37,413 bases of DNA from Aquabacterium sp. (GTDB taxonomy: Bacteria > Pseudomonadota > Gammaproteobacteria > Burkholderiales > Burkholderiaceae_C). Where the stretch lies: contig NZ_JACRAH010000019.1 in the NCBI RefSeq assembly GCF_016234775.1, positions 74,105 to 111,517 on the forward strand, in the 5' to 3' direction. The notes below the pieces were generated by a model. That model had not been told where the DNA came from. It saw only the letters and a list, made by a program, of their open reading frames with translations, and did no database searches. The first letter of the stretch is position 1; each line of letters begins with the position of its first letter. Positions 11,999 to 20,020 of this stretch are shown here, in pieces. The position numbers and the translations under genes were made by a program.

Positions 11999-12643
11999 TT
12001 ACTGCAGGGCGTCCAGCACAGGCGGCGCCTTGTAGTCCAGCAGGGCGTCCTTCAAATCTTGCGTGACGGGGCGGTTGCCCAGCCAGGTGCGCAGCACCGC
12101 AGGGAAGAAGCCCGCGTCTTCCAGGGGCAGGCCGGCAGGTTGGGCGTTGACGAAGAACATGGTGCCGCGCTTGGGCACGAATTCGATCGAAAACACGTCG
12201 CCGGGGTTCAGTCGCTTGATGCGCGAGAACTGTTCACCCATGATGCGGATAGAAGGGATCAGCTTGAAGAATTCTTCGCGGCTGCTGTTGTTCTCGATGC
12301 CCTTGGTGATGACCTTGCCCAGTTCGTCCACGCGCATGCCTTGCAGCATCACGAAGCGCAGTTGCTTGGGGCCACCGGTGGCGAAGATGGCTTCGGCCTT
12401 GCTGGCTTTCTGGGGCACATACAGGCCCACCGTGTACAACTTGGCCACGGCGCGGTAGCTGATGCCGCTGCCGTTGATGGTGAGGTTGGCGCCTTCGACC
12501 TTGATCGTGGGGGGGTAATGCACACCCACCACATCGGCACTTTGAGCCTGGGCCACGTGGGGCAGCCCCAGCGCGAGTGCCAGGCCGGCTGTGGCCAGGG
12601 CTTGGCGCCCGATACGGGACATGGCAGCGAGAGTCAACGACAT
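11999..12643 (-). CDS. Exported chalcone-isomerase-like protein
   Basis: A 214-residue protein with a Sec signal peptide (ALATAGLALALGLPHVAQAQ). The mature part has the bacterial chalcone-isomerase-like fold: PPTIKVEGANLTINGSGIS near its start, YRAVAKLYTVGLYVPQKA, then a helical middle and FSIEFVPKRGTMFFVN. Bacterial members of this group are small periplasmic proteins of unknown role and are not expected to be plant-type chalcone isomerases. They may bind fatty-acid-like ligands. Two in-frame ATGs (12643 and 12622) both keep the signal peptide. A TATAAG box at 12656-12651 sits so close to the first that the second may be the true start. It is convergent with gph and divergent from the trpE promoter region. 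Confidence 0.85.
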   Translation of the reverse strand: MSLTLAAMSRIGRQALATAGLALALGLPHVAQAQSADVVGVHYPPTIKVEGANLTINGSGISYRAVAKLYTVGLYVPQKASKAEAIFATGGPKQLRFVMLQGMRVDELGKVITKGIENNSSREEFFKLIPSIRIMGEQFSRIKRLNPGDVFSIEFVPKRGTMFFVNAQPAGLPLEDAGFFPAVLRTWLGNRPVTQDLKDALLDYKAPPVLDALQ

Positions 12644-12812
12644 ACGAATACTTATAAGGCGTCCTGTTGTGTGAAGCTTGGATGACGTCGAGGTCAGATT
12701 GGCTCCGAACAGGAACTGTACTGGTAAGAGATTGTTACTCGTTCAACGCGAATCACAATCTGGGTTTGCCCTTGAAGGCATGGCTCACTCAAGGGGGGTA
12801 CGTTTTGATCAT

Positions 12813-12839
12813 TTGGCGCCAAGAGCGCCCTGCTACACT
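12813..12839 (+). promoter_or_regulatory. Promoter of the trpE leader transcript
   Basis: An extended -10 (TGC then TACACT, 12831-12839) lies 15 bp after a TTGGCG (12813-12818) that could be the -35. Counting 7 nt from the end of the -10 puts the start of transcription at about 12846, which is the A of the leader ATG. The spacer carries an inverted repeat, GGCGC / GCGCC (12815-12819 and 12825-12829). A second, CCTTGA / TCAAGG (12769-12774 and 12789-12794), lies upstream. Either could be an operator. The rest of 12644-12812 shows no gene. Confidence 0.55.
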
Positions 12840-12845
12840 GTTTTG

Positions 12846-12911
12846 ATGTTCATCTCGCGCAAACAGACCAAAGGTTCGCACGACCGGGGGGCATGGCCCT
12901 GGCGACGCTGA
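12846..12911 (+). CDS. trpL: Tryptophan leader peptide 1, upstream of trpE
   Basis: A 21-residue ORF, starting MFISRK and ending GAWPWRR. Two Trp codons (TGG at 12894-12896 and 12900-12902) stand three codons or fewer before the stop at 12909-12911. Tryptophan is rare, and two Trp codons this close in a tiny ORF upstream of trpE are the hallmark of transcription attenuation, in which ribosome stalling reports tRNA-Trp charging. There is no Shine-Dalgarno; the predicted transcription start falls on the ATG itself, so it is probably translated as a leaderless mRNA. Leaderless trpL is known in Sinorhizobium, an alphaproteobacterium. trpE starts 195 bp after the stop. Confidence 0.7.
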   Translation: MFISRKQTKGSHDRGAWPWRR

Positions 12912-12958
12912 CTCCCTATTTCTTGTCGCTCAGTGCGTCGCGATCATAGCGGCGCGCT
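12902..12958 (+). promoter_or_regulatory. Mutually exclusive RNA hairpins after the trpE leader ORF (attenuator-like)
   Basis: Segment 1 (12902-12911, the last Trp codon's tail through the stop) pairs with segment 2 (12930-12941). The pairing is GCGACG with CGTCGC plus CTGA with TCAG, around a 2-nt bulge, giving 10 bp. Segment 2 (12932-12941, AGTGCGTCGC) can instead pair with segment 3 (12949-12958, GCGGCGCGCT): 10 unbroken pairs counting three G-U, with a 7-nt loop. The two pairings share 12932-12941 and exclude each other, the geometry expected of a 1:2 versus 2:3 switch. A following intrinsic terminator with a U-tract is not evident. The only later stem I see is GCCCTC (12973-12978) with GAGGGC (near 12996), without a U-run. 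Rho or translation may therefore be the output. Confidence 0.55.
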
Positions 12959-13106
12959 CACTCGGCAAGGGGCCCTCCACGTCACAACGGTAAGAGGGCG
13001 TAAACAGAACGGGTGGATCCGCTCCTAAAGGGGGTGTTTCACAAGATGACATATGTGGCGCAAAGCCGACTGATGCTGGCGCTGCCGGGCTCGGAGTCCC
13101 CAAACC

Positions 13107-14585
13107 ATGATCACTGAACAAGCATTCAATGCCCTGGCCGCTGAAGGCCACAACCGCATTCCCCTGGTCGCCCAGGCCCTGGCCGATCTCGATACGCCGC
13201 TGTCGCTCTACCTCAAGCTCACCAAGGGGCAGCCGCTGAGCTTCCTGCTGGAGTCCGTGGTGGGCGGCGAGCGCTTTGGTCGCTATTCCTTTGTGGGCTT
13301 GCCGGCACACACGCTGGTGCGGGCTACCGGTCGCCAGGTTGAGGTCGTGCGTGATGGCACGGTGGTGGAAACGTTCGACGGCAACCCGCTGGATTTCATC
13401 GCCACCTATCAGCACCGCTTCAAGGTGGCGGTGCCTCAAGGTCTGCCGCGCTTTTGCGGCGGTCTGGCCGGCTACTTTGGCTACGACACCGTGCGCCACA
13501 TCGAGCATCGCCTGGCGAAAACGCACAAGCCCGGTGGCATCGGCACGCCCGACATCCTGCTGCTGCAGTGTGAAGAGCTGGCCGTGATCGACAACCTGGC
13601 CGATCGCCTCTTCCTGATCGTGTACGCGGACCCCTCCCAGCCGGGCGCCTACGCCAAGGCGGTTTCCCGCATTGCGCAATTGCAGGCGCAGCTCAACGAA
13701 GTCGTGCCGGTGCCGCCCATCACGGCTGGCGAGTCCTACCCTGTCGAGCGCCACTTTGCCAAGGCTGATTTCGAATCGGCCGTGCTCAAGTGCAAGGAAT
13801 ACATTGCTGCGGGTGACTGCATGCAGGTGGTGATCGGCCAGCGTCTGCAAAAGCGCTTCACGGCTTCGCCGCTGAGCCTGTACCGTGCACTGCGTTCGCT
13901 CAATCCGAGCCCCTATATGTATTACTACGACATGGGCGATCACCATGTCGTGGGTTCGTCGCCCGAGATCCTGGTGCGCCAGGAGAAGAACAAGGATGGC
14001 GGCGAGACGGTCACCATCCGCCCGATTGCCGGCACACGTCCGCGTGGCACCACGCCCGAGCAGGATGCCGCCAACGAGAAGGAACTCCTGGCCGATCCCA
14101 AGGAGCGCGCCGAGCACGTCATGCTGATCGACCTGGCCCGCAACGACATCGGCCGCATTGCGAAAACCGGTTCGGTCAAGGTCACCGAGGCCTTTGGCAT
14201 CGAGCGCTATTCGCATGTGATGCACATCGTCAGCAACGTCGAAGGCACGCTGAAAGATGGCATGACCGGTCTGGACGTGCTGCGCGCCAGCTTCCCGGCG
14301 GGCACCTTGAGCGGTGCACCCAAGATCCGCGCGATGGAAATCATCGACGAGCTGGAGCCTGTGCAACGTGGCGTCTATGGCGGTGCCGTGGGCTACCTGA
14401 GCTTTGCGGGTGACATGGACGTGGCCATCGCCATCCGCACCGGCGTCATCAAGGACCAGACCCTGTACGTGCAGGCAGGTGCCGGCGTGGTGGCCGATTC
14501 CGTGCCCGAGCTCGAATGGCAAGAGACCGAGGCCAAGGCCCGCGCCGTGGTGCGGGCGGCCGAGATGGTCGAACAAGGCCTGTGA
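13107..14585 (+). CDS. trpE: Anthranilate synthase component I
   Basis: A 492-residue enzyme that, with TrpG, makes anthranilate from chorismate and glutamine, the first committed step of tryptophan synthesis. The feedback site LLES is seen in [17 protein letters not shown] (about residues 45-61). The chorismate-binding domain has [14 protein letters not shown], then [38 protein letters not shown] and [15 protein letters not shown], all typical and intact. The length is normal. It lies 195 bp after a Trp-rich leader ORF and is followed after 26 bp by a cyclic-di-GMP protein, not by trpG, which is nearly 4 kb away. Feedback inhibition by tryptophan is expected from the LLES motif, and attenuation from the leader. 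Confidence 0.97.
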
Positions 14586-14611
14586 TGTGATCCTTTTGGC
14601 GATCGGGTCTG

Positions 14612-16969
14612 ATGGCCTGGTCGTCAAGGGATATCCCCATTTCAGTGCGCCTGCGGGTGCGTCGATATACCGCTTCATCCTTCATTCAGGACGCAGCGCT
14701 CGACGTGCTCTACACCTTTGCGATCTACATGGCTGTGACCCTGGGCACCGGGGTCGCCTTGCTGCTGGTCTGGCGGCAGGATCGCGCGCAGACGTTCACG
14801 GCCTTGCTGGGCCTGTCGCACCTGATCTGGACGTTCAACCCACTGGCCTATCTGGCCACACGCAGCGCCGATCCCATGTGGCATCACATCGGTCTGGTCG
14901 GGCTGGTGCTGGTGGGCACCACCTACCTCAGCCTCTTGTCACTGGGCTTCATCCATCTGTCGGGCAGGCGTTTCAACAGGTGGAAATTGCTGGCGACGGG
15001 CGGCTTCCTGTTCGTGTTTCACGTCGGCCTGATCCTGGTTGAGCTGCATTGGGCGCAACTGGGGTTTGCGGCGCTGAACACGGTGATCGGGCTGGTAGTG
15101 GCCTGGTGGTTGCGCAAGCAGGGCCCGGGCGAACGGGCCAGCGGGGTGTTGATCGTGCTCTGTGGCCTTAACCAGTTCACCTATGTGTTGATGGGCGAAC
15201 CTGGTGCCATGCTGCAGACCACGATTGCCGCGGCGCTGCGCCTGTTGCTGGGCATGTCATTGATGTACGCGGCGCTGACGCGAACCGGGCAGGCTGTGCA
15301 GCGCCTGCATGATCGCTTCTTCGAATTGACCGAACGCTCACCCCAGGGCGTGACCGTGGTGCGCAAGGGCATGGTGGCCTATACCAACCCAGCATTCCGA
15401 GAGCTTTTCGGCATGCGCAAAGAGACGCCAAGCCCACCCGTGTTTTCGCCGCGCTGGGTGGAGCTCACCGTGCCCGAAACCGAACGTCAGGGCGCCGAGA
15501 TCATCGCGCGACGGGTGCTGGACGGCCAGCTTCAGCAGGCCGAATGGCATGGAGAGCGGATCTCGCTCGATGGCCGACGCCTGCACCTGCGTTTCAAGGC
15601 CTGGCAGGTGGAGTGGGACGGTGCACCAGCCTTGCAGGTTGTCGTCACGGATGACACGGCGCGCGTGGATGCCACACAGGCTTTGCTGTGGCGGGCCACG
15701 CATGACGAGCTGACAGGCCTGCCCAATCGCAGCGCCTTGTTGCAGCGCCTGCGCGAACTGTTCGATGACCCTGCTCGCCCGGCGTTCGCGCTGATCCTCA
15801 TGGACGTGGACCGCTTCAAGTTGTTCAACGAAGCGCACGGGCAAAGTGTGGGTGACGATGTGCTCAAGGTGCTCAGCACCGATCTGGCCAGACGCTTCGT
15901 GTACCAGGCGCAGGTGATGCGCATGGGCGAGGATGAGTTCGCCGTGCTCATTGAATGTGAGGATGCGGTGACCGTGGCTGAGCGGATAGCCCAGGAGGTC
16001 AAGGCCATGTTGCGAGAGCCTTTGGTGCTGCCCGCACACCGCTTCTTCCTGGACGTGTCCATGGGCGTGGCCAGCCATCCCTCCTCTGCCCAGGATGCCG
16101 AGGCCTTCCTGCAAGTGGCGCACGCCGCCATGCATGATGCCAAGCGCTTGCCCGGCACGTCCGTGCAGTGGGCGTCCGCAGATGGGGCGCAAGGCCTGGT
16201 GGCCTTTTTCAGTGCCGAACAGGCTTTGCGAGCCGGCTTGCAGAACGACGAGTTCAAACTGGTCTATCAGCCCAAGGTGGCCGCCAAGTCAGGCAAATTG
16301 CTGGGCTTCGAGGCCCTGGTGCGCTGGGATCGCCCTGGGATCGGGCGCATCAGCCCGCTCGACTTCATCCCGGCAGCAGAGCGCAATGGCCTGATCGTGC
16401 CCTTGGGCGCGCTGATCCTGCGGGAGGCTTGCCAGCAGTTGGCCGCCTGGCGCGATCAGGGCTTGAATCTGGTGCCCGTGGCGGTCAACGTGTCGCCCCT
16501 GCAATTGCTGGATGCGACCTTTCCGGAGTCCGTTCTGGCGATTCTGGGTGAGTTCAAGCTGCCACCGAGTTGCCTGACCCTGGAGATCACCGAGACGGCT
16601 GCCGTGGCGCACATGGATCAGGCCAACGAGCAGATCAGCCAGTTGCGCAAGGCCGGCGTCGAGGTGGCGCTGGACGACTTCGGCACCGGTTTTTCATCGC
16701 TGAACATGCTGCGCAGCCTGCCGCTGCGCACGGTCAAGATCGACCGCAGCCTGATCGATCCCATGCCCAATCAGGAGGCCAACGCCGTGGTCAAGGCCAT
16801 TTGCGATCTGGCCTCCGTGCTCAGCCTGGATGTGGTGGCGGAAGGGGTCGAGACCGAGGAGCACGCCAGTGCGGCTGTTCGCGCAGGTTGCGATGTGCTG
16901 CAAGGTTTTCTGTTTGCCAAACCGCTGGAAGTGGACGAGGCCACGCGCTGGTTGACGGATCGCTATTGA
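14612..16969 (+). CDS. Membrane PAS-GGDEF-EAL protein, probable c-di-GMP phosphodiesterase
   Basis: A 785-residue protein. The first 225 or so residues hold about seven hydrophobic segments (for example YTFAIYMAVTLGTGVALLLV and TTYLSLLSLGFIHL). A PAS-like domain follows (RFFELTERSPQGVTVVRKGM), then GGDEF and EAL domains. The GGDEF signature reads GEDEF (residues 439-443); replacing the second Gly by Glu should disable the cyclase, leaving a possible GTP-sensing role. The EAL domain looks complete: E567 in FEALVRW, the Asn in AVNVSPLQL, LEITETA, ALDDFGTGFSSL, VKIDRS, AEGVETEEH and LQGFLFAKP. So it likely hydrolyses c-di-GMP to pGpG. It starts 26 bp after trpE and probably shares its transcript. 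The start codon is not certain; later GTG/ATG codons before the first helix are possible. Confidence 0.88.
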   Translation: MAWSSRDIPISVRLRVRRYTASSFIQDAALDVLYTFAIYMAVTLGTGVALLLVWRQDRAQTFTALLGLSHLIWTFNPLAYLATRSADPMWHHIGLVGLVLVGTTYLSLLSLGFIHLSGRRFNRWKLLATGGFLFVFHVGLILVELHWAQLGFAALNTVIGLVVAWWLRKQGPGERASGVLIVLCGLNQFTYVLMGEPGAMLQTTIAAALRLLLGMSLMYAALTRTGQAVQRLHDRFFELTERSPQGVTVVRKGMVAYTNPAFRELFGMRKETPSPPVFSPRWVELTVPETERQGAEIIARRVLDGQLQQAEWHGERISLDGRRLHLRFKAWQVEWDGAPALQVVVTDDTARVDATQALLWRATHDELTGLPNRSALLQRLRELFDDPARPAFALILMDVDRFKLFNEAHGQSVGDDVLKVLSTDLARRFVYQAQVMRMGEDEFAVLIECEDAVTVAERIAQEVKAMLREPLVLPAHRFFLDVSMGVASHPSSAQDAEAFLQVAHAAMHDAKRLPGTSVQWASADGAQGLVAFFSAEQALRAGLQNDEFKLVYQPKVAAKSGKLLGFEALVRWDRPGIGRISPLDFIPAAERNGLIVPLGALILREACQQLAAWRDQGLNLVPVAVNVSPLQLLDATFPESVLAILGEFKLPPSCLTLEITETAAVAHMDQANEQISQLRKAGVEVALDDFGTGFSSLNMLRSLPLRTVKIDRSLIDPMPNQEANAVVKAICDLASVLSLDVVAEGVETEEHASAAVRAGCDVLQGFLFAKPLEVDEATRWLTDRY

Positions 16970-16993
16970 GCCCCTCGCCCGCTGCGCCAGGCC

Positions 16994-18106
16994 TCAGTGC
17001 GTGCCCAGGCGTTGCCGCAACCAGGTCTGAGCGGGCATTTCAACGAGCTGATAGACAAGCGTGGCCAGCCCGAACACCCCGATCAGATAGACCAGCACCC
17101 AGGCCGGTTCGTGCAAGGGCAAGGCAAAGCCCAGGCTGGAGCTCAGGCAGGCCAGCAGCAATTGCAGCGGAAAGTGCAGCAGGTAGCTGGCGTAGGTGGT
17201 GTTGCCCAGGCGGTTGAGCCAGCGGATGGCCGTGGCCGAGCGCGGCTGCACCCAGTCCAGCAGCACGATCAGCGCCACCGGCGTGAGCACCGCCACGTAG
17301 AACATGGCGCGCAGCTTGCCGCTCATCAGCAACGCTGTGCCCATGGCCACGGCCAGCAGCCCGGCGGCCTGCACCGCATGCTGCTGCCAGCGTGGGCGTT
17401 TGACCAAGGCTTCATGTGCCAGATGGGTCAAGGCGCCAAGGTAGAAGAAGAACACGCACAGCACGATGGGATGGTCCGTCAGCTTGAGCGCGTAGACCAC
17501 GCCCGAAGCACCGATCAGGCCCAGTACCTGCCACCAGCGTGTCAGGCCCAGCTTGCACAGCACGAAGAACAGCGCATAGACCAGCACCTCGATCGAGATG
17601 CTCCAGATCGGGCCATTGAAGGACCATTCGCTGCGCCCCAGCCAGTCGCTGGCCATGAACAGTTGCAAGGCGAAGTGCGCCCAGTCGTTGTATTGGTAGA
17701 CGTAGTCGCTGCCGTGCAGTTGCCGGTACCACAGGCCCAGCGCCGCCACGATCAGCAAGGTCAGCAGGTGCAGGGGATACAGGCGGGAAAAGCGCAGCAC
17801 GGCAAAGCGCCGCGTGCTGACTCGTCCTTGCGCCACCGGTAGCGCGTATTTCCAGAAGAAGATGAAGCCCGACAAGGCCCAGAAGGCCTGCACGCCCAGC
17901 CAGCCTGCTTCATAAAAAGGCTTGAGCCAGGCATACAGCGGCTGGGCGCTGGTCTCGAAACCCACCGGCGCGCCGCCCTGAAAGAAGAAGTGCTGGTAGT
18001 GCCACAGCAGCACCGACACGGCGCACGCAAAACGCATCAGTTCCAGACCCAGCAGGGCGTGTGCGGGTTGGTCTGCGGATGTGGTGGTGCGTTTCATGGC
18101 GCGCAT
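16994..18106 (-). CDS. Acyltransferase 3 family (OafA/NodX-like) membrane protein
   Basis: A 370-residue integral membrane protein with about ten hydrophobic helices. These enzymes move acetyl or succinyl groups onto exported glycans such as O-antigen or exopolysaccharide. Family marks are visible: ELMRFACAVSVLLWHYQHFF near the N terminus with the conserved Arg and His, FWALSGFIFFWKYAL, RFSRLYPLHLLTLL and WSISIEVLVYALFF. There is no periplasmic SGNH extension. It stands alone on the minus strand between the EAL gene (24 bp from its 3' end) and the trpG leader, dividing the trp locus. Its partner glycan may be that of the exopolysaccharide cluster 6 kb away; that is inference. The start could also be the Met three codons later (MKRTTT). 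Confidence 0.9.
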   Translation of the reverse strand: MRAMKRTTTSADQPAHALLGLELMRFACAVSVLLWHYQHFFFQGGAPVGFETSAQPLYAWLKPFYEAGWLGVQAFWALSGFIFFWKYALPVAQGRVSTRRFAVLRFSRLYPLHLLTLLIVAALGLWYRQLHGSDYVYQYNDWAHFALQLFMASDWLGRSEWSFNGPIWSISIEVLVYALFFVLCKLGLTRWWQVLGLIGASGVVYALKLTDHPIVLCVFFFYLGALTHLAHEALVKRPRWQQHAVQAAGLLAVAMGTALLMSGKLRAMFYVAVLTPVALIVLLDWVQPRSATAIRWLNRLGNTTYASYLLHFPLQLLLACLSSSLGFALPLHEPAWVLVYLIGVFGLATLVYQLVEMPAQTWLRQRLGTH

Positions 18107-18172
18107 CTTGGCATGAGCCTGTGCTGCACAGGCCGTGGCGCGCCCCCTCAGTCAGGGCGGGGCCACGCCATG

Positions 18173-18178
18173 TAGAAT
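18173..18178 (+). promoter_or_regulatory. -10 box of the trpG leader transcript
   Basis: TAGAAT (18173-18178) follows a TG pair and predicts a transcription start near 18185. That is one base before the ATG of the short Trp-Trp ORF at 18186. No good -35 hexamer is visible at 16-18 bp upstream; the region is very GC-rich. Confidence 0.45.
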
Positions 18179-18185
18179 CACCCGC

Positions 18186-18236
18186 ATGCAGCAACCCTCG
18201 GATTTTTCTCACCTTGACGCACGTTGGTGGCGGTGA
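18186..18236 (+). CDS. trpL: Tryptophan leader peptide 2, upstream of trpG
   Basis: A 16-residue ORF reading MQQPSDFSHLDARWWR. Tandem Trp codons (TGG TGG, 18225-18230) stand one codon before the stop (18234-18236). It lies 138 bp upstream of trpG. As with leader 1 there is no ribosome site, and the likely transcription start coincides with the ATG. The Trp codons also form one side of a small hairpin (TGGCG 18228-18232 with CGCCA 18237-18241, GTGA loop). Tandem Trp codons at this position are the classical sensor of charged tRNA-Trp. Confidence 0.7.
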   Translation: MQQPSDFSHLDARWWR

Positions 18237-18264
18237 CGCCAACCTGACACTGCATGACCTGCGC

Positions 18265-18288
18265 GCGCACCCCTCCCCGGTGCGCTTT
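18265..18288 (+). terminator. Candidate attenuator terminator before trpG
   Basis: GCGCACC (18265-18271) and GGTGCGC (18279-18285) form a perfect, GC-rich 7-bp stem with a 7-nt C-rich loop, followed at once by TTT (18286-18288). It sits 29 bp after the stop of leader peptide 2 and about 90 bp before trpG, where an attenuator should be. The U-run is short. I could not find a convincing competing antiterminator pairing. An 8-bp direct repeat, TCCGAGGG, occurs just after (18305-18312 and 18318-18325). Confidence 0.5.
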
Positions 18289-18374
18289 GCCAAGAAAACG
18301 GGTCTCCGAGGGGGAATTCCGAGGGATGGTGCAAGACCACCCCATGACTCACATCCCGAATCAGGATAGTGCCC

Positions 18375-18959
18375 ATGCTGCTCATGATCGATAACTACGA
18401 CAGCTTCACCTTCAACCTGGTGCAGTACTTCTGCGAACTGGGCGAAGAGGTCAAGGTGTTTCGCAATGACGAGATCACGCTCGACGAGATCGCCGCGCTC
18501 AAGCCCGATCGCCTCGTGCTCTCGCCAGGCCCATGCTCACCCGCCGAAGCCGGCATCTGCGTGTCGGCTCTGCAACGCTTCACCGGCCAGTTGCCCATCC
18601 TGGGTGTCTGCCTGGGTCACCAGAGCATCGGTGCGGCCCTGGGTGGCAAGGTGATCCGCGCGCACGAACAGATGCATGGCAAGACCAGCATCATCACCAC
18701 CGATGAGCAAGGCGTGTACGCCGGCCTGCCGCGCCAGTTCACCGTGATCCGCTACCACTCGCTGGCGATTGAGCGCGAGACCTTGCCCGACTGCCTGGAG
18801 GTCACCTCCTGGACGGACGACGGCGAGATCATGGGCGTGCGCCACAAGGGCCCACAGACGGACAAGAACTTCGCGCCGCTCGAAGGTGTGCAGTTCCACC
18901 CTGAATCCATCCTGACCGAGCATGGCCACGCCATGCTGGCCAATTTCCTGAAGATGTAA
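18375..18959 (+). CDS. trpG: Anthranilate synthase component II (glutamine amidotransferase)
   Basis: A 194-residue class I glutamine amidotransferase that releases ammonia from glutamine for TrpE. The opening [19 protein letters not shown] is diagnostic. The nucleophile Cys is in [11 protein letters not shown] (about residue 79), and the His/Glu pair is in [13 protein letters not shown]. The oxyanion-strand motif SPGPCSP is present. I chose the ATG at 18375, with AGGA 8 bp upstream, over a GTG two codons earlier. trpD follows after 14 bp with its own strong ribosome site, so trpGD is one operon behind leader peptide 2. In some bacteria the same protein also serves PabB; no separate PabA is in view. 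Confidence 0.97.
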
Positions 18960-18973
18960 TCGAGGAGGCCGAC

Positions 18974-20020
18974 ATGTCCCAGCTGACCGATCAACAGGCC
19001 TTGCAACGCGTCATCGAACACCGCGAGATCTTCCACGACGAGATGCTGGGCCTGATGCGCCGCATCATGACGGGTGAGATGTCGCCGGTGACCATGGCCG
19101 CCTTCATCACCGGTCTGCGCGTGAAGAAGGAAACAGTTGGCGAGATCACGGCGGCCGCCCAGGTGATGCGCGAGTTCGCCACGCCGGTGCACGTGTCCAA
19201 CAAGATGCACCTGGTGGACTTGTGCGGCACGGGTGGTGACGGCCAGCACACCTTCAACATCTCGACCACGGCCATGTTCGTGGCTGCTGCTGCCGGTGCC
19301 CGCGTGGCCAAGCACGGTGGTCGCAGCGTGTCGTCCAGCACGGGCAGTGCCGATGTGCTCGAAGCCCTGGGTGCCTGCATCAACCTCACTCCTGACCAGG
19401 TGGCGCAGTCGCTGGCCGCATCCAATGTTGGCTTCATGTTTGCGCCCAACCACCATGGCGCCATGAAGCACGCCGCACCGGTTCGCAAGGAGTTGGGCAT
19501 CCGCACCTTGTTCAACATCCTGGGGCCTTTGACCAACCCGGCCGGTGCACCCAATCAGCTCATGGGTGTGTTCCACCCGGATCTGGTGGGCATCATGGCC
19601 CGCGTGCTGCAGCGCCTGGGCTCCGACCACGTGATGGTCGTGCACGGTTGCGATGGCCTCGATGAGATCACGCTGGCGGGCGATACCCAGGTGGCGGAAC
19701 TCAAGAACGGCGAAGTGCGCGAGTACCGCGTCAACCCAGGTCAGTTCGGTCTGGCCGAACATGATGGCGCCATGCTCAAGGCACAGAACCGCGAGATGTC
19801 GGTGGGCATCGTGCGGCGCGTGTTCGACAACGAACCGGGCCCGGCGCGTGACATCGTGCTGCTCAACGCTGGCGCAGCGCTTTATGCGGCCAATGTGGCT
19901 GATTCGCTGGGCGATGGCATCGAGCGCGCGCGGGATGCGATTGCCAGCGGCCGTGCTGGCGAGGCCTTGTTCAACTTCGTGCAGACGACGCAGGGTCTGG
20001 CTGCCCAGCAGCCGGCTTGA
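18974..20020 (+). CDS. trpD: Anthranilate phosphoribosyltransferase
   Basis: A 348-residue enzyme that joins anthranilate to PRPP, the second step of the pathway. The PRPP/anthranilate loop is [19 protein letters not shown] (residues about 79-97). [21 protein letters not shown] follows, where KHGNR is more usual, so the Asn is replaced by Gly. [21 protein letters not shown] and [13 protein letters not shown] are typical. A strong GAGGAGG lies 6 bp before the ATG. The last 50 bp overlap, on the opposite strand, the 3' end of a diguanylate cyclase gene. That overlap, rather than a free intergenic region, separates trpD from trpC. Confidence 0.97.

Follow-up and report, generated by a model that had tools for sequence, protein, structure and literature searches.

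Predicted leaderless tryptophan leaders before trpE and trpG in a split Aquabacterium locus, and an apparently exchangeable trpG leader in its relatives

In Aquabacterium sp. (assembly GCF_016234775.1), the genes for the two components of anthranilate synthase, trpE and trpG, lie apart, and each is preceded by a tiny open reading frame (ORF) that ends in tryptophan (Trp) codons. We examine these two putative leaders in a stretch of 37,413 nucleotides (nt), here called the window (contig NZ_JACRAH010000019.1, positions 74,105 to 111,517 of the forward strand), and follow them through relatives; positions are those of the window, on its forward strand unless stated. The stretch lies on contig 1 of a genome assembled as 68 contigs (4.27 Mb), whose TrpE points to Burkholderiales such as Ideonella, Rubrivivax, and Comamonas as the closest named relatives. 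The trpE leader ORF, MFISRKQTKGSHDRGAWPWRR, occupies 12846..12911 (ATG at 12846, TGA at 12911), ends in WPWRR, and is predicted to be leaderless. Its Trp codons (12894-12896 and 12900-12902) both fall within a core, CCGGGGGGCATGGCCCTGGCG, at 12884..12904. Upstream lies an extended -10 promoter element, TGC-TACACT (12831..12839, with TACACT at 12834-12839), and downstream trpE itself (component I, 13107..14585; Pfam Chorismate_bind and Anth_synt_I_N). The trpG leader ORF, MQQPSDFSHLDARWWR, belongs to what we call type A; it occupies 18186..18236 (ATG at 18186, TGA at 18236), ends in WWR with its Trp codons at 18225-18230, and is likewise predicted to be leaderless. Its -10 box, TAGAAT, stands at 18173..18178 and is constant in type A leaders. 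Then follow trpG (component II, 18375..18959; Pfam GATase) and trpD (18974..20020; Pfam Glycos_transf_3).

A sequence-only reading of this DNA had pointed to two Trp-ended ORFs 6 to 7 nt behind -10 boxes, and both are confirmed in the sequence: the trpE-leader ATG is 6 nt behind TACACT, and the trpG-leader ATG follows TAGAAT after a spacer of 7 nt. Transcription usually starts 7 nt behind the -10 box, so the 6-nt spacer would place the first transcribed base on the A of the trpE-leader ATG. The same reading had noted that neither ORF has a Shine-Dalgarno (SD) sequence, and this extends to relatives, where an SD-like tetramer precedes none of the 59 trpE leaders and none of the 45 trpG leaders studied (0/104); in the same loci such a tetramer precedes the gene start in 48/59 cases for trpE and 43/45 for trpG. 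The 59 trpE leaders were picked through their Trp motif, with the -10 box playing no part in the selection; 2 loci that have the motif without an ATG (L013 and L040) and loci L001 and L002 were omitted from the counts (G and L numbers are our handles for genomes and loci). Spacing from -10 box to start was 6 to 10 nt in 57/59, the window included (6 nt, 19; 7 nt, 15; 8 nt, 3; 9 nt, 13; 10 nt, 7). The 45 trpG leaders were chosen by patterns that include a -10 spacing of 6 to 9 nt, so their spacing is no test; the same kind of selection underlies the trpG sets in the terminator, stalling-model, composition, SD, and core-complementarity analyses below. Every type A leader, found through Trp codons alone, has TAGAAT 6 to 7 nt before an in-frame ATG. 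We therefore predict that both leaders are leaderless, with transcription from the ATG, a term that we use as a prediction deduced from -10 spacing.

The promoter of the trpE leader has a recognizable form. Anchored on the -10 box, 57 aligned leaders give the consensus TTTGC-TA(C/A)ACT, in which TGC and TA.ACT are almost invariant, and no -35 signal was seen among them; it looks like a promoter of the extended -10 type without a -35 element. A scan of 12600-18700 with a consensus promoter gave no match.

The trpE leader is widespread. An ATG-started leader with the motif (G/E)AW(P/L)WR occurs in 58/80 TrpE loci, with the motif lacking an ATG in 2 and missing in 20. Our sample of the genus comprised 42 genomes, 41 of them with a match, and the leader (as RGAWPWR) is present in 39/41, the window included (38/40 others); there it has a -10-like box ahead of it (38/40 other genomes), with a spacing of 6 or 7 nt in almost every case. 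Across 56 distinct trpE-leader sequences the core, GACCGGGGAGCCTGGCCCTGGCG, is near-invariant, synonymous sites included, and within the genus third codon positions hold 57% of the differences between leaders. The comparison across relatives that the sequence-only reading had proposed thus finds the Trp codons conserved in both leaders, in the 58/80 trpE loci and before trpG in the split genomes described next.

The trpG leader tracks the separation of trpG from trpE. Our filter for it required a start codon 5 to 9 nt behind a -10-like hexamer, a length of 8 to 45 codons, and Trp among the last 10 codons. A genus genome counted as split if more than 1 kb, or a contig boundary, separates trpG from trpE. 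A start-proximal Trp leader precedes trpG in 33/35 split genomes of the genus versus 0/6 joined ones, among which G029 offered just 131 nt upstream. Among the matches listed for other genera (194/200 and 191/200 family genomes matched), 20 of 21 split or contig-broken cases were examined, G207 being left out, and 15/20 have a trpG Trp leader. It occurs in 0/43 further joined loci, which span other families of the order and beyond and bring the joined total to 49, and in 0/16 loci with 100 to 1000 nt between trpE and trpG. The filter matches 1.0-2.9% of dinucleotide shuffles and 7/663 other ORFs (at least 300 aa, spurious ones included), none of the 663 with two Trp codons, which agrees with the earlier claim of a design beyond chance.

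Two types of trpG leader prevail in the genus. Type A (MQQPSDF..RWWR) is found in 22 genus genomes, the window among them, and type B (MRAFLSSSA..RQRWRKP) in 10; leaders reading MSAIRPITAARSGWRWRKPSA are likely relatives of type B across the family. Third positions hold 51% of the differences in type A leaders of 16 aa, and an excess at third positions is clear in two of five leader sets (trpE of the genus and the 16-aa type A). In the joined genome G033 (L089), where 81 nt separate trpE from trpG, CATGTAGAAT and a broken type A promoter and leader start precede trpG, a pattern that would fit the loss of a type A leader when the two genes were rejoined. Elsewhere, L187 (G088) carries a trpE-type leader (RGAWPWRQP) directly 5' of trpG, with trpE on another contig, and L064, L075, and L080 have further Trp-rich ORFs 5' of separated trpG genes that fail the -10 filter.

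Several lines of evidence suggest that the trpG leader has been exchanged. In a trpG tree of 41 genomes, types A and B are not clades; type B requires 8 changes, at least 6 of them on well-supported branches. The type B leader regions of G008, G007, G011, and G001 are 94-99% identical, the third positions of their trpG genes are 72-80% identical, and their close relatives carry unrelated leaders. An integrase gene lies between trpE and trpG in G011 and G008, and behind trpE on its contig in G001 and G007. In three species of the genus an island separates a type A leader from trpG, and another leader precedes trpG.

These islands have a common architecture. In at least 10 genomes an integrase gene follows a displaced copy of the trpG 5' end (its first 18 nt). 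This 18-mer occurs twice: the displaced copy lies past the old leader, or past trpE, and leads into foreign DNA with the integrase, and the other opens an intact trpG. Complete intervals, with both copies on one contig, number 6 (G011, 21.6 kb; G008, 21.0; G086, 18.9; G410, 20.6; G139, 24.9; G132, 26.5), and one 18-nt copy has one mismatch in G008 and G139 and two in G132. The contig of G313 stops within the integrase gene, and only the left end of that interval was seen. Old, left-hand leaders are of type A in G011, G008, and G001 and type B-like in G007, G086, G230, G313, and G132. In G410 and G139, whose relatives within their genera have joined trpE-trpG, no left leader is present and the 18-mer copy stands 1 to 2 nt past the trpE stop. 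A new Trp leader that passes the filter precedes the intact trpG in 4/6 complete cases (G011, G008, G086, G410), and G007, G001, and G230 have one before trpG on their other contigs. These counts are lower bounds, one search requiring an exact 18-mer and at most 4 integrase candidates being scored per genome.

Uninterrupted sister sites exist for four island genomes, most clearly for G011 and G008. Left flank plus core match the uninterrupted sister leader at 97-99% in G011 (three sisters) and 98% in G008 (one); G001 reaches 92% over a gapped alignment and 87% to a second sister, and G007 98% over only 99 aligned bases, its second sister having another leader (49%). Right-end leaders are only 48-54% identical to those of the sisters and so unrelated to them, and trpG behind the core is 91-97% identical; for G011 and G008 the two figures are 53% and 91-95%. 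Taken together, the islands appear to insert in the first codons of trpG and to bring a new leader with them.

The islands share related integrases. Those of G011 and G139 have the domains Arm-DNA-bind_3, Phage_int_M, and Phage_integrase, and a related integrase is present in 10/10 genomes with a displaced 18-mer (in G313 partial, at the contig end). Integrases at least 71% identical were found in at least 4/42 genus genomes and at least 3 of the 399 genomes of the wider family sample, each of the 7 with an 18-mer copy no more than about 3.5 kb away; the remaining genus matches do not exceed 43% identity and are found on other contigs or distant from trpG. In islands of this integrase group a pair of repeats, AGCGGGTA(T/C)C, spaced by 12 nt, accompanies the core at either end: at the right end it precedes the core (-74/-62), and at the left end it is found at about +125/+137. 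In G230 each left repeat has one mismatch; at the right end G139 shows mismatched forms only, and G132 has practically no such repeats. The right pair recurs in G080, whose 4.2-kb interval has no integrase. Single matches appear in 19/1243 background windows. We regard the repeats as putative arm sites of the integrase. Besides the integrase, a scan of 10 proteins from three islands found type I restriction-modification, SIR2/ThsA-like, and RelA_SpoT proteins, and the islands are likely mobile. In L231 (~1527), L230 (~5387), L215 (2720), and L217 (3984) the distance from the start of the 18-nt core to that of the island integrase ORF is 267 nt, with the ORF in the same direction, so the old trpG leader and its promoter may drive the integrase.

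Our overall reading, which we consider probable, is that each trp unit (trpE, trpGD) has its own predicted leaderless Trp-codon ORF that would sense tryptophan, mostly without a classical terminator, and that the trpG leader is exchangeable, in relatives via islands. Transcription of each unit would begin at the leader ATG; when charged tRNA-Trp is scarce, ribosomes would stall at the leader Trp codons, and stalling would raise expression of trpE and trpG, the route being either release of the ribosome site or a block on Rho. Island insertion would be one route from a joined trpEG operon to a split locus with two Trp leaders. The earlier idea that one design occurs twice stands in that both leaders are of the predicted leaderless type; simple duplication does not account for them, the trpG leader having been replaced in the family, partly via islands. 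A bolder version, which we put forward tentatively and do not favor, is that these are integrative defence islands specialised on the first codons of trpG, with a Trp sensor inside the attachment arm that re-regulates the operon they cut; that the second Trp leaders of the family's split loci, including that of the window, are traces of insertion; and that mobility itself would answer to tryptophan, since the integrase adjoins the old trpG leader when integrated or the new leader in the circle.

A number of observations weigh against these readings. Spacers of 9 to 10 nt, in 20/57 trpE leaders, would leave a 5' end of 2 to 3 nt before the start codon. Among the 80 TrpE loci the filter finds a leader at just 2/10 split trpG genes; five split genomes of the family are filter-negative (G132, G139, G156, G202, G092), and in G156, G202, and G092 no trpG leader was found by filter or by eye. 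At the right end of the G139 island stands a Trp ORF (WRWRKP) without a clear -10 box, and the right-end leader of G132 starts with GTG and was recognised by eye. Only one Trp codon is present in 8/10 type B leaders of the genus (RQRWRKP), and there is little or no third-position excess in type B, in the 19-aa type A, or in wider trpE sets. As to the islands, left and right ends lie on different contigs in G007, G001, and G230, where, with the intact trpG on a separate contig, the link from end to end is deduced; in G041, with its type B leader and 42.6-kb gap, no left copy, second 18-mer, or related integrase was found; and type A leaders lack the island repeats in 21/22 genomes.

An island origin of the window's own type A leader is possible. 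The first 18 nt of its trpG (18375..18392), the island site in relatives, have 2 mismatches to that site and hold no island. The 3.8-kb gap between trpE and trpG contains a GGDEF/EAL protein gene (14612..16969) and, on the reverse strand, an acyltransferase-3 protein gene (16994..18106); by Pfam neither is an integrase, and no island remnant was seen there. A second 18-mer was not found with up to four mismatches allowed, and an integrase search of the genome gave no match on the window's contig.

How the leaders would act on their genes turns largely on terminators. A hairpin-plus-T-run terminator is missing in 93/104 leaders: a loose filter was passed by 0/22 type B and other family leaders, 1/23 type A leaders (a set that counts G003, typed as 'other' in the trpG tree, where type A numbers 22), and 10/59 trpE leaders. 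The last group includes the trpE leader of the window, which counts against a design without terminators; the window's trpG leader fails. The Alcaligenaceae trpE leaders used as a control pass in 6/6 cases. The leaders share with classical trp attenuators an ORF with adjacent or nearly adjacent Trp codons 5' of a trp gene; the lack of a terminator in most of them, and of a ribosome site ahead of the leader ORF (SD-like tetramer in 0/104), sets them apart, and mainly translation or Rho remain as output. The sequence-only reading had proposed that trpE and trpG are attenuated independently; one Trp leader per transcription unit supports the separate control, and the 93/104 leaders without a classical terminator speak against attenuation in its textbook form. 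The Alcaligenaceae-type leaders themselves (L063-L065, L067-L069) have a strong terminator, in contrast to the Comamonadaceae-like type.

We infer that ribosome stalling at the Trp codons is the sensor and that the output is either translation or Rho, and weigh the alternatives as follows. One is that the leaders differ from classical ribosome-mediated transcription attenuators, with their intrinsic terminator, only in being leaderless, like Sinorhizobium trpL. Trp codons close to the stop, a hairpin at the Trp codons, and the 10/59 trpE leaders that pass the loose filter, the window's among them, fit it; the near absence of terminators in type B, family, and type A leaders, set against the Alcaligenaceae control, and leaders such as L019 without any run of three T before the gene make it unlikely. 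That the ORFs are chance neighbors of ordinary promoters, with no leader function, is very improbable in view of their conservation, of the 7/663 background, and of a leader in 33/35 split versus 0/49 joined loci.

Translational control is a serious candidate, to which we would give somewhat less than even standing. Here the ribosome site of trpE or trpG would be masked by pairing with the Trp core until a stalled ribosome frees it, as reported for polycysteine ORFs in mycobacteria. The mostly missing terminator suits this, and complementarity of core to SD beats shuffles for trpE (mean z -0.57, standard error (s.e.) 0.14, n = 57; for comparison, -0.35 in the neighbouring segment and -0.03 to +0.32 in others) and in 9/22 type B and family leaders, namely those with a recognizable core pattern (z -0.72, s.e. 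0.13), although related sequences inflate these z tests. Type A leaders give z +0.28 (s.e. 0.2, n = 23), and a species-swap test showed no clear co-variation. Under modelled stalling the SD openness of the window rises from 0.32 to 0.51; across 104 leaders, however, the mean change in SD accessibility is about none (trpE +0.006, type A +0.022, type B +0.001, family +0.029), which also counts against our account of how stalling acts. The other candidate output, which we see as possible while leaning against it, is Rho-dependent attenuation, in which a Rho entry site behind the leader would be made unusable by a ribosome stalled at the Trp codons or by the resulting structure. C exceeds G behind the leaders (0.37-0.41 versus 0.28-0.31 in trpE, type A, and family; 0.305 versus 0.232 in genus type B; 0.303 versus 0.293 in control upstream regions), T-runs are few, and type A and family leaders stand at the mean 86th percentile of 58 controls. 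This evidence is compositional, and trpE and genus type B reach only the 62nd and 68th percentiles.

Structural features accompany the leaders. In many of them, by eye, a Trp codon lies in a short stem closed by a GNRA-like loop, UGGC(G)-GNRA-(C)GCCA; in the window, TGGCG-GTGA-CGCCA at 18228..18241 encloses the second Trp codon and the stop codon of the trpG leader and is kept in most type A leaders. Also in the trpG leader, CCCTCGGA (18195..18202) is complementary to TCCGAGGG at 18305-18312 and 18318-18325, as seen in the fold and the type A alignment; the fold beats shuffles (z -3.3), with CCCTCGGA pairing with the second copy of TCCGAGGG. For the 5' end of trpE mRNA, complementary partners of the GAAUGAAC kind stand before trpE in many relatives, though not in all and not in the window (mean z -0.79, n = 59; other leader segments 0.05, 0.04, and -0.10). 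We keep this pairing as a lead only: the species swap gave it no clear support, and the window scores +1.2.

Several parts of this picture have precedents. In Sinorhizobium meliloti, trpL (rnTrpL) is described as leaderless, its mRNA starting at the ATG, with attenuation at trpE(G) (PMC7298713). The leaders here resemble it in having a Trp leader ORF with a predicted mRNA start at the ATG; S. meliloti has one leader for trpE(G) and transcription termination, whereas here there are two leaders, split genes, and mostly no terminator. By its title, a 2001 study by Olekhnovich and Gussin has Pseudomonas putida trpE and trpGDC both under attenuation, reportedly by classical attenuators. To our knowledge, these attenuators are not described as leaderless or island-linked. 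In P. aeruginosa, early 3' ends near a possible GTG-started upstream ORF before trpGDC have been noted (PMC8297930). With both operons attenuated, the Pseudomonas arrangement resembles the two-leader layout seen here.

Leaderless polycysteine ORFs have been described in mycobacteria (PMC9031893). These ORFs share with ours the leaderless form and the codons for one amino acid, but the amino acid is Cys and the lineage Actinobacteria. Canestrari 2020 is said to show that they regulate downstream genes by attenuation, and we know of no case of their exchange by mobile elements. Cys leader ORFs of Actinobacteria are noted as having no terminator hairpin, with Rho suggested (PMC1262725); they share the missing terminator with the leaders here and differ in amino acid and lineage. 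Within the same order, the Alcaligenaceae trpE leaders are likewise Trp-rich but differ in being mostly of the (A/Y)W.RWWR type, with a GC hairpin and U-run in 6/6. Integrase islands at the 5' end of dusA replace the gene end and supply a new putative promoter (PMC4482086). The trpG islands go further in that their new upstream region includes an amino-acid leader matching the pathway they interrupt. Among the top titles and abstracts of the open-access literature searched, we found no report of leaderless Trp leaders in Burkholderiales or of trpG islands, nor of an island carrying an amino-acid leader matched to the operon it interrupts. Leaderless trpL, separate attenuation of trpE and trpGDC, leaderless amino-acid ORFs, and 5'-end islands are thus already known; the combination of an island with a matching leader, which appeared in none of the listed literature, would be the new part.

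If the reading of exchangeable leaderless sensors is right, many Burkholderiales sense tryptophan by leaderless ORFs, mostly without the textbook terminator and one per unit. A broken operon could then remain regulated, the DNA that breaks it supplying the sensor. Amino-acid leaders have so far been viewed as fixed parts of host operons; here one kind would be a transferable module carried at an island's end.

Smaller observations concern the wider genome and its relatives. At gathering scores, an Rfam scan of the window returned three tRNAs and nothing else. Among other genes of the same genome (trpF, two DAHP synthases, and two class Ib tRNA synthetases, with mechanically guessed starts), no two-Trp leader was found, and one DAHP synthase is preceded by a weak single-Trp match. 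Just one TrpG-like protein at E<=1e-40 is present in 38/41 matching genus genomes, so PabB may draw on TrpG as well; contig 23 of the genome that holds the window encodes a second chorismate-binding protein. L164 and L165 (G038 and G032) carry a second trpE-like/trpG-like pair (TrpE 55% and TrpG 62-65% identical).

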